From the NCBI RefSeq assembly GCF_900105785.1, contig NZ_LT629799.1, forward strand, positions 1,054,001-1,118,000: 64,000 nucleotides of DNA. Reading direction: 5' to 3'. The position numbers and the translations under genes were made by a program. The notes below the pieces were generated by a model, which ran no database searches, was not told where the DNA came from, and worked only from the letters and a program-made list of their open reading frames with translations. Source of the DNA: Microlunatus sagamiharensis. GTDB lineage: Bacteria; Actinomycetota; Actinomycetes; Propionibacteriales; Propionibacteriaceae. Below are positions 27,145-30,342 of the stretch, piece after piece (the first letter of the stretch is position 1; every line of letters begins with the position of its first letter).

Positions 27145-27585
27145 ATGACGATCCGTGAGGTCCAGGTCACGTTCGACTGCGCGGGGCCGGACGCGCTCGC
27201 CGACTTCTGGTGCGCGGTGCTCGGCTACGACAAGCAGCCGCCGCCCGCCGGCTTCGACAGCTGGGACGCCGCCCTCGACGCCTGGGGCGTGCCCGCCGAG
27301 GAGCGCGACTCCCGCTCCGCGGCTGTCCCGCCCGAGGGCGAGACCGGTCCGCGGCTGTTCTTCCAGCGCGTCCCCGAGCCCAAGACGGTGAAGAACCGCG
27401 TCCACCTCGACGTCCGCGCCGCGCCGGGCCTCAGCGGCGCCGAGCGCGCGGACGCCCTGGAGGCCGAGGCCGCCCGCCTCGTCGCCCTCGGCGCCACCGT
27501 CGTCCGCCGCCTCGAGGCCGACGGCATGGACGAGGCGGTCATCGTGGTGCAGGACCCGGAGGGCAACGAGTTCTGCCTCGACTGA
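27145..27585 (+). CDS. VOC/glyoxalase-like protein
   Basis: The 146-residue protein has the glyoxalase/bleomycin-resistance fold, in the subgroup with the DFWCAVLGYDK opening (about 20-30) and the closing VQDPEGNEFCLD (about 135-146). A middle segment FFQRVPEPKTVKNRVHLDV carries the paired-strand His that usually binds metal. These proteins bind or isomerise small ligands; no specific substrate can be inferred. It is a single gene with its own leaderless promoter, divergent from DUF3866 and upstream of pafB. Confidence 0.85.
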   Translation: MTIREVQVTFDCAGPDALADFWCAVLGYDKQPPPAGFDSWDAALDAWGVPAEERDSRSAAVPPEGETGPRLFFQRVPEPKTVKNRVHLDVRAAPGLSGAERADALEAEAARLVALGATVVRRLEADGMDEAVIVVQDPEGNEFCLD

Positions 27586-27648
27586 GCGGCCCGACGCCAC
27601 CACGGCTCGCCGAGAGCGGAATCGCACGGGTGGTCGAGTCGGCCGTAG

Positions 27649-27654
27649 TAGTTT
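27649..27654 (+). promoter_or_regulatory. Possible pafB promoter
   Basis: TAGTTT lies in a locally AT-richer stretch (GTAGTAGTTTCATCAC). Transcription from here would begin near 27661 and give pafB a 5' UTR of about 160 nt that contains the whole structured element at 27699-27789. No confident -35 or PafBC/LexA operator could be picked out. Confidence 0.35.
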
Positions 27655-27698
27655 CATCACTCGCCCGAAGGACGGACCGCCGTCGACCCGGCCAGCGC

Positions 27699-27789
27699 CG
27701 GATCCTGCGCCGGTGTCTGGACGACGAGCCGACGAACACGCTTTTCGTTCGTCGGCGAGGAGGAAGACACCGGACCAGAGCAGGATCCG
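27699..27789 (+). ncRNA. Structured leader element, copy C (upstream of pafB)
   Basis: Three stacked perfect stems: GGATCCTGC 27700-27708 with GCAGGATCC 27780-27788; CCGGTGTCT 27710-27718 with AGACACCGG 27765-27773; GCCGACGAAC 27728-27737 with GTTCGTCGGC 27747-27756. The apical loop is ACGCTTTTC. The 5' internal-loop strand is GGACGACGA and the 3' strand is GAGGAGGA; 6 unpaired nt (ACCAGA) lie between stems 1 and 2 on the 3' side only. It lies 32 nt before the pafB ATG. Two related copies are at 29791-29910 and 29921-30040 with different stem sequences that still pair. It could be a cis-regulatory RNA or a palindromic DNA repeat; no known class is recognised. Confidence 0.6.
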
Positions 27790-27820
27790 CGTCCGAGCGG
27801 AGCGAGGACAGAGGACACGT

Positions 27821-28795
27821 ATGGCACCGCGCAAGACCGAGCGCATCGTGAACCTCACGATCGCGCTCCTGGTCGCCGGTCGCTACCTGCCCAAGACGCG
27901 GATCCGGGAGCTGGTCGAGGGCTACCACGGGCTGACCGACGCGGCCTTCGAGCGGACGTTCGAGCGGGACAAGGACGAGCTGCGCGAGCTCGGCGTGCCG
28001 ATCGAGGTCGGCGGCTACGACCCCCTGTTCGACGACGAGGCGGGCTACCGGATCCTGCCCAGCGAGTTCTCGCTGCCGCCGATCGAGCTCGACGCCGAGG
28101 AGGCGTCGGTGGTCGGCGTGGCGGCGCGGGTGTGGCAGCACGCGAGCATGGCCTCCTCGACCCAGAGCGCGATGACCAAGCTGCGCGCGGCCGGCGTCGA
28201 GCCGGACCCCTCCGCGCTGGCCGCGCTGGAGCCGTCGGTGCAGGCGACCGAGGCGGCCTTCGGGCCGCTGTGGAACGCGGTCCTCGAGCGCGTCCGGGTG
28301 CGCTTCACCTACCGCGACGGCAGCCTGCGCACCCTCGAGCCGTGGGGCCTGACCTCGCGCCGGGGGCGTTGGTACGTGGTCGGGCGCGACGTCGACCGCG
28401 AGGCCACGCGGATGTTCAAGCTCTCGCGCATCGGCGACGTGCCCGTGGCGGTGTCCCGGCCCGGAGCGTTCGAGGCGCCCGAGGGCCTCGACCTGCGGAC
28501 GCTGGCCGCCAAGCTCGACCCCCAGGAGGCCACGGCCGAGGCGCTGCTGGCGGTCCGGACCGGCAAGGCCCCGTCGCTGACCCGGCGTGGCCGGCGGGAG
28601 GGCACGTCCGACCTCGCGTGGGCCGCCGGCGGCCGTGAGGGCTGGTGGGTCGGCTACGGCAGCCTGCCGGGCATGGCCGAGGAGGTCGCCGGCCACGGGG
28701 CCGACGTGCTGGTCGTCGAGCCCGTCGAGCTGCGCGAGGCGGTCGTCGGGCGGCTGCGCGAGGTCGCGGCACGCGCCGGGGCGGTGGCGCGGTGA
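27821..28795 (+). CDS. pafB: PafB, WYL-domain transcriptional regulator
   Basis: PafB forms with PafC a heterodimeric activator of LexA/RecA-independent DNA-damage genes (shown in mycobacteria). The 324-residue protein has an N-terminal winged helix (about 1-60, ERTFERDKDELRELGVPIEV), a WYL domain (about 145-215: VRFTYRDGSLRTLEPWGL, GRWYVVGRDVDREATRMFKLSRI, where the family motif lies) and a C-terminal WCX domain. ATG 27821 is chosen because it gives the conserved start MAPRKTERIVNLTIALLV and follows GAGGAC; the open frame upstream runs through the structured element. The stop overlaps pafC by 4 nt. It is probably regulated through the long leader. Confidence 0.93.
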   Translation: MAPRKTERIVNLTIALLVAGRYLPKTRIRELVEGYHGLTDAAFERTFERDKDELRELGVPIEVGGYDPLFDDEAGYRILPSEFSLPPIELDAEEASVVGVAARVWQHASMASSTQSAMTKLRAAGVEPDPSALAALEPSVQATEAAFGPLWNAVLERVRVRFTYRDGSLRTLEPWGLTSRRGRWYVVGRDVDREATRMFKLSRIGDVPVAVSRPGAFEAPEGLDLRTLAAKLDPQEATAEALLAVRTGKAPSLTRRGRREGTSDLAWAAGGREGWWVGYGSLPGMAEEVAGHGADVLVVEPVELREAVVGRLREVAARAGAVAR

Positions 28796-29754
28796 CGAGC
28801 CAGGCGCAGGTGCGCCGGCTGCTCAGCCTCGTGCCGTACCTCCGCGAGCACGACGGCGCGGCCGTCGCCGACGTGGCCGCGGCGTTCGGGGTCAGCCCGA
28901 AGACGCTGCGCGCCGACCTGAACGTGCTGTGGATGTGCGGCATGCCGGGGCTGTCGCCGGGCGACCTCATCGACATCGACATGGACGCGGTCGACGGCGA
29001 GGGCGTCATCCACCTCAGCAACGCCGACTACCTCACCCGGCCGCTGCGCCTCACCGCCGACGAGGCGCTGGCCCTCGTGCTGGCCCTGCGGACGCTCCGC
29101 GAGATCGCCGGACCGGACCAGCGCGCCGCGACCGACCGCGCGCTGGCCAAGCTCGAGGGGGCGGCGCAGGCCACGCCGACGGGGTCGGCGTCGGTCGCCG
29201 TGACCTCCGCGACCGAGGACGTGCGGGCGACGCTGGCCGACGCGCTGCAGCGCGGCCGGCGCCTCGACCTCACCTACGACACGGCGACGCGCGACGAGAC
29301 GACGCAGCGCTCCGTCGACCCGCTGCGGCTCTTCGTCCTCGACGGCTTCGGCTACCTCGAGGCGTGGTGCTACCGCGCGGAGGGCCTGCGGACGTTCCGG
29401 CTCGACCGCATCGCCGACGCGGCGGTGACCGACGTGGCGGTGGAGAAGCACGACGTCGAGCTCGCCGACCTGAGCGCCGGCTGGTTCGCCGGGCTGGCCG
29501 ACGCACCCGTCGTGACCCTCGAGCTGGCCCGTGAGGCGGCCTGGGTCGCCGAGTACTACCCGACCGAGACCACCGCGCCCGGACCCGATGGCGGCGTCGT
29601 CGCCACGTTCCGCGTCACCGACCCCGCCTGGCTGCGCCACCTGCTGCTGCGCCTCGGCGGCTCCGCCCGTGTCCTGTCCCCGTCCGGCGCGGGCGACGCC
29701 GCCGCCGAGGCGGCGCAGGAGGCCCTGGCGGCGTACGAGTCCGTCGGCCTCTGA
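28792..29754 (+). CDS. pafC: PafC, WYL-domain transcriptional regulator
   Basis: This is the second subunit of the PafBC DNA-damage activator. The 320-residue protein has an N-terminal winged helix (residues about 1-60, RRLLSLVPYLREHDGAAVAD, SPKTLRADLNVLWMCG), then a WYL domain (about 155-225: LDLTYDTATRDETTQRSVDP, GFGYLEAWCYRAEGLRTFRL, DRI) and a WCX domain (about 240-320). GTG 28792 overlaps the pafB stop by 4 nt. The stop is followed within 40 nt by the first copy of the tandem structured repeat. Confidence 0.93.
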   Translation: MTSQAQVRRLLSLVPYLREHDGAAVADVAAAFGVSPKTLRADLNVLWMCGMPGLSPGDLIDIDMDAVDGEGVIHLSNADYLTRPLRLTADEALALVLALRTLREIAGPDQRAATDRALAKLEGAAQATPTGSASVAVTSATEDVRATLADALQRGRRLDLTYDTATRDETTQRSVDPLRLFVLDGFGYLEAWCYRAEGLRTFRLDRIADAAVTDVAVEKHDVELADLSAGWFAGLADAPVVTLELAREAAWVAEYYPTETTAPGPDGGVVATFRVTDPAWLRHLLLRLGGSARVLSPSGAGDAAAEAAQEALAAYESVGL

Positions 29755-29790
29755 GCACGAGGGTGCGCTCCGCGCTCGGCCACGTGCCGC

Positions 29791-29910
29791 GAGCGTCGGG
29801 GACCGGGCGCCGGTCTGCCTGGACGACCGATCGGGGGCGACATGCTTTTCGTCGTCCCTGGGAGGGAGGAAGGCGGATCGTGTCAGCGCGCGGTGCGCGA
29901 GACGGCGAGA
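29791..29910 (+). ncRNA. Structured repeat, copy A (tandem pair)
   Basis: A 120-bp unit differing from copy B at only three positions. Stem 2: CGGTCTGCCT 29811-29820 with AGGCGGATCG 29871-29880 (10 bp, two G-U). Stem 3: GGGGCGAC 29834-29841 with GTCGTCCC 29851-29858 (one G-U), apical loop ATGCTTTTC. Stem 1: ACCGGGCGC 29802-29810 with GCGCGCGGT 29886-29894, one mismatch, and 5 unpaired nt (TGTCA) between stems 1 and 2 on the 3' side. The internal-loop strands are GGACGACCGATC and TGGGAGGGAGGA. The architecture matches copy C at 27699. Confidence 0.6.
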
Positions 29911-29920
29911 GCACGCTGTC

Positions 29921-30040
29921 GAGCGTCGGGGACCGCGCGCCGGTCTGCCTGGACGACCGAGCAGGGGCGACATGCTTTTCGTCGTCCCTGGGAGGGAGGA
30001 AGGCGGATCGTGTCAGCGCGCGGTGCGCGAGACGGCGAGA
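29921..30040 (+). ncRNA. Structured repeat, copy B (tandem pair)
   Basis: Second 120-bp unit, 10 bp after copy A. Stem 1 is perfect here: ACCGCGCGC 29932-29940 with GCGCGCGGT 30016-30024. Stem 2: CGGTCTGCCT 29941-29950 with AGGCGGATCG 30001-30010. Stem 3: GGGGCGAC 29964-29971 with GTCGTCCC 29981-29988, loop ATGCTTTTC. The unit ends 8 nt before the GTG of the small membrane gene at 30049, so it would sit in that gene's leader. Confidence 0.6.
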
Positions 30041-30048
30041 ATGGGCGC

Positions 30049-30342
30049 GTGTGGTGGGTCCTCCTCTTCGTCGCGATCGCGCTCGGCGGTGCCGTCGTGC
30101 TCGTCCTGGTCGGTCTGAGGGTCTGGCGCTCGGCGCGGGGGCTGCTGCACGAGGTCGACGTGCTGGCGGTGCGGGCGACCGAGCTCGCCGACCTGGTGGC
30201 CCAGGTCGAGGTCGCCCTGCCCGCCAGGCGGGCAAGCCTGGACGGACACGGCTCCGAACCCCTTCTCGACTCAGGTTGGCCGGGTACGGTCGAGCCGTAC
30301 GATGACCGTGGCGCGACCGCGCCGGGAAAGAAGGAACTATGA
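30049..30342 (+). CDS. Small single-span membrane protein before tatA
   Basis: This 97-residue protein starts with a strong transmembrane helix (about 2-22, WWVLLFVAIALGGAVVLVLV) followed by a basic patch, then a Leu/Glu/Val helix (about 30-60, HEVDVLAVRATELADLVAQV) that may be coiled coil, and a disordered tail. It resembles short DUF948-type proteins in layout only. GTG 30049 is chosen because upstream codons belong to the repeat unit. It overlaps tatA by 4 nt (ATGA), so it is co-translated with the Tat genes. Similar unnamed small membrane proteins sit between pafC and tatA in related genomes. Confidence 0.65.
   Translation: MWWVLLFVAIALGGAVVLVLVGLRVWRSARGLLHEVDVLAVRATELADLVAQVEVALPARRASLDGHGSEPLLDSGWPGTVEPYDDRGATAPGKKEL

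Follow-up and report, generated by a model that had tools for sequence, protein, structure and literature searches.

A MIRU-like, probably mobile structured element of the Propionibacteriales with three copies around pafB and pafC of Microlunatus sagamiharensis

Three copies of a structured element lie in the pafB-pafC-tat region of Microlunatus sagamiharensis, within the 64,000-nucleotide stretch of DNA analyzed here (the window; contig NZ_LT629799.1 of assembly GCF_900105785.1, positions 1,054,001 to 1,118,000). We regard these structures as probable copies of a mobile element that is recognized via its folded single strand and inserts at gene edges, in the manner of the mycobacterial interspersed repetitive units (MIRUs). 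With similar confidence, we think that they belong to a family of small interspersed mobile elements, ~120-150 bp long, in the order Propionibacteriales.

A single covariance model, R1, accommodates all three copies and comprises four helices: P1, P2, P3 and, 3' of P1, the covarying hairpin P4 (GYCC-GAGCGGAGCGA-GGRC); the tandem pair behind pafC has a variant 3' end. R1 was derived from 23 aligned copies, gathered by sequence pattern from the M. sagamiharensis genome and five relatives; eight pattern loci, seven chance matches and one truncated copy, had been set aside ahead of the initial alignment. The training set includes the window's three copies, which therefore match by construction; with filters off, the next-best match in the window after these reaches 15 bits. 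An independent pattern, TGGACGAC...GCTTTTCG, finds exactly the three copies in the window, with 0.00 matches expected, and all three fold below their shuffles (Table 1). Thus, the three copies of one architecture described in the initial annotation were borne out, as were the three stems, the 5-6 unpaired nucleotides on the 3' side only, and the 9-nt apical loop. The stems also pair despite changes of sequence, as had been claimed: among the 23 copies, 21 of 32 pairs have changed on both sides, and the covariation score is 0.44, compared with 0.14 (standard deviation 0.013) after shuffling, with 0 of 500 shuffles as high, slid partners scoring at most 0.096, and covariation present in all helices. 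The asymmetric internal loop of the same description is present, but it can be read as paired, with GAC GAC GA opposite GAG GAG GA forming three tandem G-A steps with C-G pairs between them, and the fourth hairpin, P4, had gone unnoticed.

The two internal-loop strands are near-invariant columns in the alignment, and the apical loop is invariant in 23 of 23 aligned copies, the pattern used to select those copies having contained most of it. Further counts come from the 140 copies read in five genomes, which for the relatives are the best-scoring ones (20 regions of 42 matches in genome G018, 40 of 58 in G017, 13 of 19 in G014, and 7 of 19 in G010; the M. sagamiharensis genome is G000). A regular expression finds the G-A motif in canonical form in 103 of the 140, strand-swapped in 23, and in either form in 124, and the P4 loop pattern with the tail is present in 105. 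The ends of the element are sharp, in that columns more than ~8 nt upstream of the model or past its 3' end are uninformative in the 140 copies. The consensus reads, roughly, CCCGACC.CCGCCGG-P1-GCGCC-P2-TGGACGAC...-P3-ACACGCTTTTCGT-P3'-...GGGAGGGAGGAAG-P2'-5 or 6 nt-GAGC-P1'-CGCG-P4-CAGAAGACACG.

At E<=1e-4, R1 finds 43 copies in the M. sagamiharensis genome; they occupy both strands and have varied genes as neighbors, which supports a palindromic repeat family, the alternative that the initial annotation had offered to a regulatory RNA. Matches to R1 occur in 13 of 20 genomes of the genus, own included (seven have none), and weak relatives occur in three genomes of another family, f3. A second model, R2, built from seven f3 relatives, matched 44 of 245 genomes of the order, of which six belong to Microlunatus, ten to f3, and 28 to g15, a genus with genomes of 7.4-9.7 Mb; because the searches of many genomes scored at most 23 or 14 candidates per genome (14 in the f3 R1 search and with R2), copy numbers are lower bounds. 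Genes were called with a codon-usage caller trained on the window and applied also to other genera. Rfam gave 0 gathering matches in the window and, at E<=1 in five loci, one match that lay off the element, and a known Rfam family was rejected because the element had no match at either the curated or the permissive threshold. The g15 element was matched neither in plasmid and phage collections nor, by pattern search, in a viral collection; the window element had no match in plasmids or, by pattern, in the viral collection, and phages were not searched with it. Searches of the open-access literature showed no title or abstract describing this family. At one locus of G010 (L195, C1:3298480-3299144), five copies stand in tandem at a spacing of ~135 nt, and two copies of G000 (C1:200 and C1:4390367) have flanks 98.8-99% identical, which points to a recent duplication near contig ends.

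In g15, the element inserts at RTGA (ATGA or GTGA), the overlap between one gene's stop codon and the start codon of its successor, with TGA on both edges and neither gene broken. At the argJ-argB junction (NCBIfam names), which was read in 30 of 38 genomes and parsed in 29, 23 genomes are native, five are filled (one with extra sequence), and one holds another palindrome. The empty site reads ...TCCTC GTGA ACAGTC and the filled site ...TCCTC GTGA-(CTGTGCAG ... GGGAGGCCCCA)-TGAACAGCC, the parentheses enclosing the insert. At an ABC-permease junction, read in 30 of the 38, 25 genomes are native, four filled, and one carries a remnant. In a tree of the 24 genomes that the two sets share, some nodes of which are weak, the filled genomes are scattered. 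In a set of 20 loci taken from three g15 genomes, 14 have a called start codon exactly at the left edge, 12 a TGA stop exactly at the right edge, and 10 have both; the TGA at both edges may be a 3-bp duplication or an element end equal to the target.

Ahead of its new start, the inserted g15 unit carries GGGAGG. Of 38 parsed g15 copies, 27 have a 40-codon open frame that leads from the upstream-edge RTGA to the downstream gene's start RTGA, 119 nt on, and a further copy has its frame over 113 nt (frames of 38-40 codons, 28 of 38); the remaining copies comprise one with a shorter frame and nine without a frame. That the 119-nt spacing is 2 modulo 3 is no separate evidence, because the search itself imposed the frame. 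Since the frame extends from edge to edge, from RTGA to RTGA, both neighbors stay intact. The outer P1 pairs of the g15 element join the flank (mostly GGTCAT) to an internal ATGACC, and the two vary together; this looks like the pairing of a target with a guide, and may also be an adaptation after insertion.

The selected fold is that of the strand antisense to the abutted gene, irrespective of the transcription of the neighbors. Within P1-P3, G-U pairs stand to A-C mismatches as 95:21 on the element strand, and as 26:7 in copies whose two neighbors both run opposite to it. By RNA energies the plus strand is the more stable of the two in 127 of 140 Microlunatus copies and in 58 of 58 copies from f3 and g15; by DNA energies the figures are 128 of 140 and 56 of 58. 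P4 taken alone leans 7:15 toward the gene's strand, which is not significant. Dependence on transcription from the left gene was rejected because P1-P3 pairing is alike, at 0.90-0.93, in all four gene orientations. A fold on the antisense strand argues against a 3' untranslated region or leader function as its origin and for a single-stranded intermediate; the data are compatible with either DNA or RNA as the single-stranded form. For an independent small RNA, no promoter was apparent: the 60 nt upstream of the 140 copies hold no conserved position except the last ~8, and no sigma-70-like site was found at 27585-30100 of the window.

In Microlunatus, 77 of 140 copies have a 3' edge abutting an antisense stop codon, when ~27 would be expected from uniform placement in the gap ("abutting" covers about -26 to +10 nt, a range fixed after the first genome had been seen). 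By subset, this holds for 32 of 48 own-genome copies and 45 of 93 copies in relatives, and 39 of the 48 own-genome copies have an antisense right neighbor. A sense start is abutted by the 3' edge in 13 of 140, including the pafB copy. The 5' edge is not pinned, since only 8 of 90 copies with a plus-strand gene on the left lie within 20 nt of that gene, and no peak of TCA, TTA, or CTA at the left edge indicates a TGA duplication in Microlunatus. Seventy of the 140 copies occupy convergent gaps, 40 and 20 the two kinds of co-directional gap, and 10 divergent gaps; the background frequency of convergent gaps is 27 of 202 (gaps >=40 nt in 400 kb of G014). In g15, 16 of 21 copies abut an antisense stop, in loci that are mostly the best one per genome and include some orthologs. 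The abutting stop is TAA in 12 of 78 cases in the five Microlunatus genomes, versus 5 of 393 in the background of the window and G014. The gap between rplK and rplA (NCBIfam names) holds a copy, L099, in G000; L204 of G018 has flanks homologous to those of L099, and L041 (G013) is similar by eye. A second palindromic repeat (CCTGAGCCTGTCGAAGG / CCTTCGACAGGCTCAGG) occupies some gene edges missing the element (G014 C1:400001-800000, loci L218-L237; also L121, L123, and L128).

Placement of this kind could also mark a regulatory structure of gene ends, be it a terminator, a 3' stabilizer, an insulator, or a ribosome-stalling hairpin near the stop, as in the repetitive extragenic palindromes (REPs) of Escherichia coli, which mobility only spreads. 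We hold this to be the most serious alternative, albeit an unlikely one. The many copies in convergent gaps and against stops (70 and 77 of 140), the retention of pairing in orthologous copies, and the other palindromes that G014 has at some of the same gene edges are all consistent with it; REPs less than 16 nt from the stop are reported, in an excerpt of PMC12306157, to lower translation, and the lean of P4 toward the gene's strand would, despite its lack of significance, point the same way. Yet the foldable strand is antisense to the abutting gene, and a terminator would do harm between rplK and rplA, where one of the copies sits. Intrinsic terminators were rejected as such: none was found at 27585-30100 of the window (loops of 3-8 only), and a T-run at the edges occurs in 1 of 140 copies on the plus strand and 0 of 140 on the minus strand.

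Many copies share both flanks between different species. In 35 pairs of such orthologs, hand-picked, with members in common, and omitting pafB and some other listed pairs, 154 double changes at paired positions preserve the pair and 37 leave a mismatch on one side; single changes lead to G-U in 24 cases and to a mismatch in 53. This preservation counts against plain decay; possible contributors are selection at the site, fold-back correction, and gene conversion between copies. If a mutational process alone (fold-back template switching or gene conversion between copies) kept the pairing, rather than selection, covariation would have little functional meaning; we rate this slightly below regulation at gene ends. 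The proportion of pairing-keeping double changes to single changes to G-U (154 vs 24) is in its favor, as is the copy L214 of G018 (C1:981367-981497), in which, unlike in its ortholog L191, the G-A loop has turned into a perfect Watson-Crick palindrome, suggesting that correction happens. However, fold-back correction should erase G-A mismatches, yet the G-A motif, canonical or swapped, persists in 124 of 140 copies, and it predicts no strand preference, yet G-U is favored on one strand.

For a MIRU-like mobile element, the folded strand, which is the antisense one for genes at an insertion site and stays foldable whatever the direction of the neighbors, would be the form recognized in trans by an enzyme, as single-stranded DNA or RNA, and gene edges would be the sites that tolerate insertion. 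A bolder proposal, which we advance as speculation, is a new transposition system in which the ~120-bp element moves as a folded single strand, the three tandem G-A steps serve as the enzyme's handle, the outer part of P1 pairs the target (GGTCAT, antisense of ATGACC) with the internal copy, base pairing finds stop/start overlaps, and translation is relayed between the coupled genes. Less credible again is a REP or IS200/IS605 relic moved by a Y1 transposase. It would account for a strand-specific hairpin with a short insertion target, and the cleavage site of IS200/IS605 elements pairs with a guide, much as the outer P1 pairs of g15 join the flank to an internal copy. The candidate was rejected because the Y1 domain (PF01797) is absent or nearly so, occurring in 0 of 20 genomes of Microlunatus and 1 of 38 of g15, in a search whose control was positive in 5 of 14 known genomes.

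Several points weigh against mobility as we picture it. No moving enzyme was found. In the window's own genus there was no clean empty site, the G014 gaps that were read holding other palindromes or remnants, and we infer mobility in Microlunatus from the family, not from sites there; the g15 and Microlunatus elements appear to be linked by covariance models and shared anatomy. In Microlunatus, TGA targeting does not show, the abutting stop being TGA in 48 of 78 cases versus 317 of 393 in the background (window and G014), and f3 has an abutting antisense stop at just 5 of 18 copies. Lastly, compensated stems at orthologous sites (154 compensated double changes vs 53 single changes with a mismatch) are more than a dead copy should show, and the helices kept there leave room for a retained function.

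At the locus in the window, the initial annotation had named the genes pafB, pafC, and tat, and rightly so: the order is a glyoxalase-like gene, a WYL-WCX protein, a PafC-type WYL-WCX protein, a small gene without a Pfam match, and a TatA family gene, with the PafC helix-turn-helix among the domain matches. Among 20 pafB loci of the genus, own included (one begins inside pafB and some end at contig ends), a copy precedes pafB only in G000 and G017; in this leader gap the G017 element has different stems and G014 has none. After pafC there are two copies in G000, one copy and a remnant in G017, a P1-like hairpin without the inner part in G014, and, in G001, a weak match whose place we infer. 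The copy in the pafB leader would supply the stretch where the pafB ribosome-binding site must be, and the pair after pafC would be a tandem duplication. Although G000 has a copy in the pafB leader and G017 another with other stems, the cis-regulatory RNA tied to DNA-damage and Tat genes that had been suggested is highly improbable, and a pafB/Tat regulon was rejected, because the position before pafB is not conserved (2 of 20) and the 43 copies of this genome, some 40 of them elsewhere, lie on both strands beside varied genes, which share no common function as judged by eye from protein ends. The P4-type motif GAGCGRAGCGRRG has a single match in the window, allowing <=1 mismatch, in copy 1.

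Table 1. Copies of the element in the window and the parts of copy 1 (window coordinates)
Feature	Position	Strand	Description
Copy 1	27695-27820	+	Full element: P1, P2, G-A helix, P3, P4, and tail; R1 121.4 bits; fold z -5.5
Copy 1, location			Between the glyoxalase-like gene and pafB; tail directly precedes pafB ATG (27821)
Copy 1, P1	27700-27708 with 27780-27788	+	5' arm GGATCCTGC, 3' arm GCAGGATCC; positions checked, fold; P1 covaries
Copy 1, P2	27710-27718 with 27765-27773	+	5' arm CCGGTGTCT, 3' arm AGACACCGG; positions checked, fold
Copy 1, internal loop	27719-27728 with 27757-27764	+	5' strand GGACGACGAG, read as tandem G-A helix with GAGGAGGA
Copy 1, P3	27728-27756	+	27728-27737 with 27747-27756; 9-nt apical loop ACGCTTTTC at 27738-27746; positions, fold
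Copy 1, P4 hairpin	27791-27809	+	GTCC-GAGCGGAGCGA-GGAC; positions, covarying pairs
Copy 2	29797-29925	+	First of tandem pair after pafC; variant ends GAGCGTCGGGGACC ... GCGCGAGACGGCGAGA; R1 91.4 bits; fold z -2.8
Copy 3	29927-30055	+	Second of tandem pair, up to called start (GTG 30049) of small membrane gene; R1 97.5 bits; fold z -4.5

Several known systems resemble the element in part. Integron attC sites are recognized as a folded single strand, keep their structure as the sequence changes, and lie after a stop codon with the antisense strand folding; their core boxes have the consensus RYYYAAC and GTTRRRY. The element shares the folded strand, the kept structure, and the antisense position after the stop, but its copies are dispersed rather than arranged in cassette arrays, and attC was rejected because both inverted core boxes occur in 0 of 140 copies. 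Intrinsic terminators and the TRIT family place a hairpin just after stop codons, as the element does, whereas the element is without a T-run and its folding strand is the antisense one. TRIT is named in an excerpt of PMC3526491. REPs and bacterial interspersed mosaic elements (BIMEs) are described, in PMC12306157, as extragenic hairpins lying in part near stop codons. Together with the REP-associated tyrosine transposases (RAYTs), they offer the likeness of an extragenic hairpin often near a stop; the element, however, is much longer, has four helices, and belongs to genomes in which the Y1 transposase is so scarce (0 of 20 and 1 of 38).

The closest likeness, one of architecture, is to MIRUs, which an excerpt of PMC12548453 describes as short dispersed repeats of mycobacteria, apparently mobile, that insert at start codons and contain an internal open reading frame coupled at a -4 spacing. 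Likewise, the g15 element inserts at stop/start overlaps, leaves both genes intact, and, in 28 of 38 parsed copies, has an internal frame that shares 4 nt with the downstream start. It differs in coming from another order, in the conserved, covarying fold of its antisense strand, which includes a G-A helix, and in that Microlunatus copies lie mostly at gene ends. MIRU-like insertion at stop/start overlaps, known to us before only from mycobacteria, would thus extend to another order, and the additions are a strand-specific fold that covaries and, across many species, filled and empty sites with exact junctions. As a caution, strong covariation beside a gene may mark a mobile element, not a riboregulator of that gene. 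What moves elements without a transposase, and how an insertion passes harmlessly between translationally coupled genes, can now be tested.

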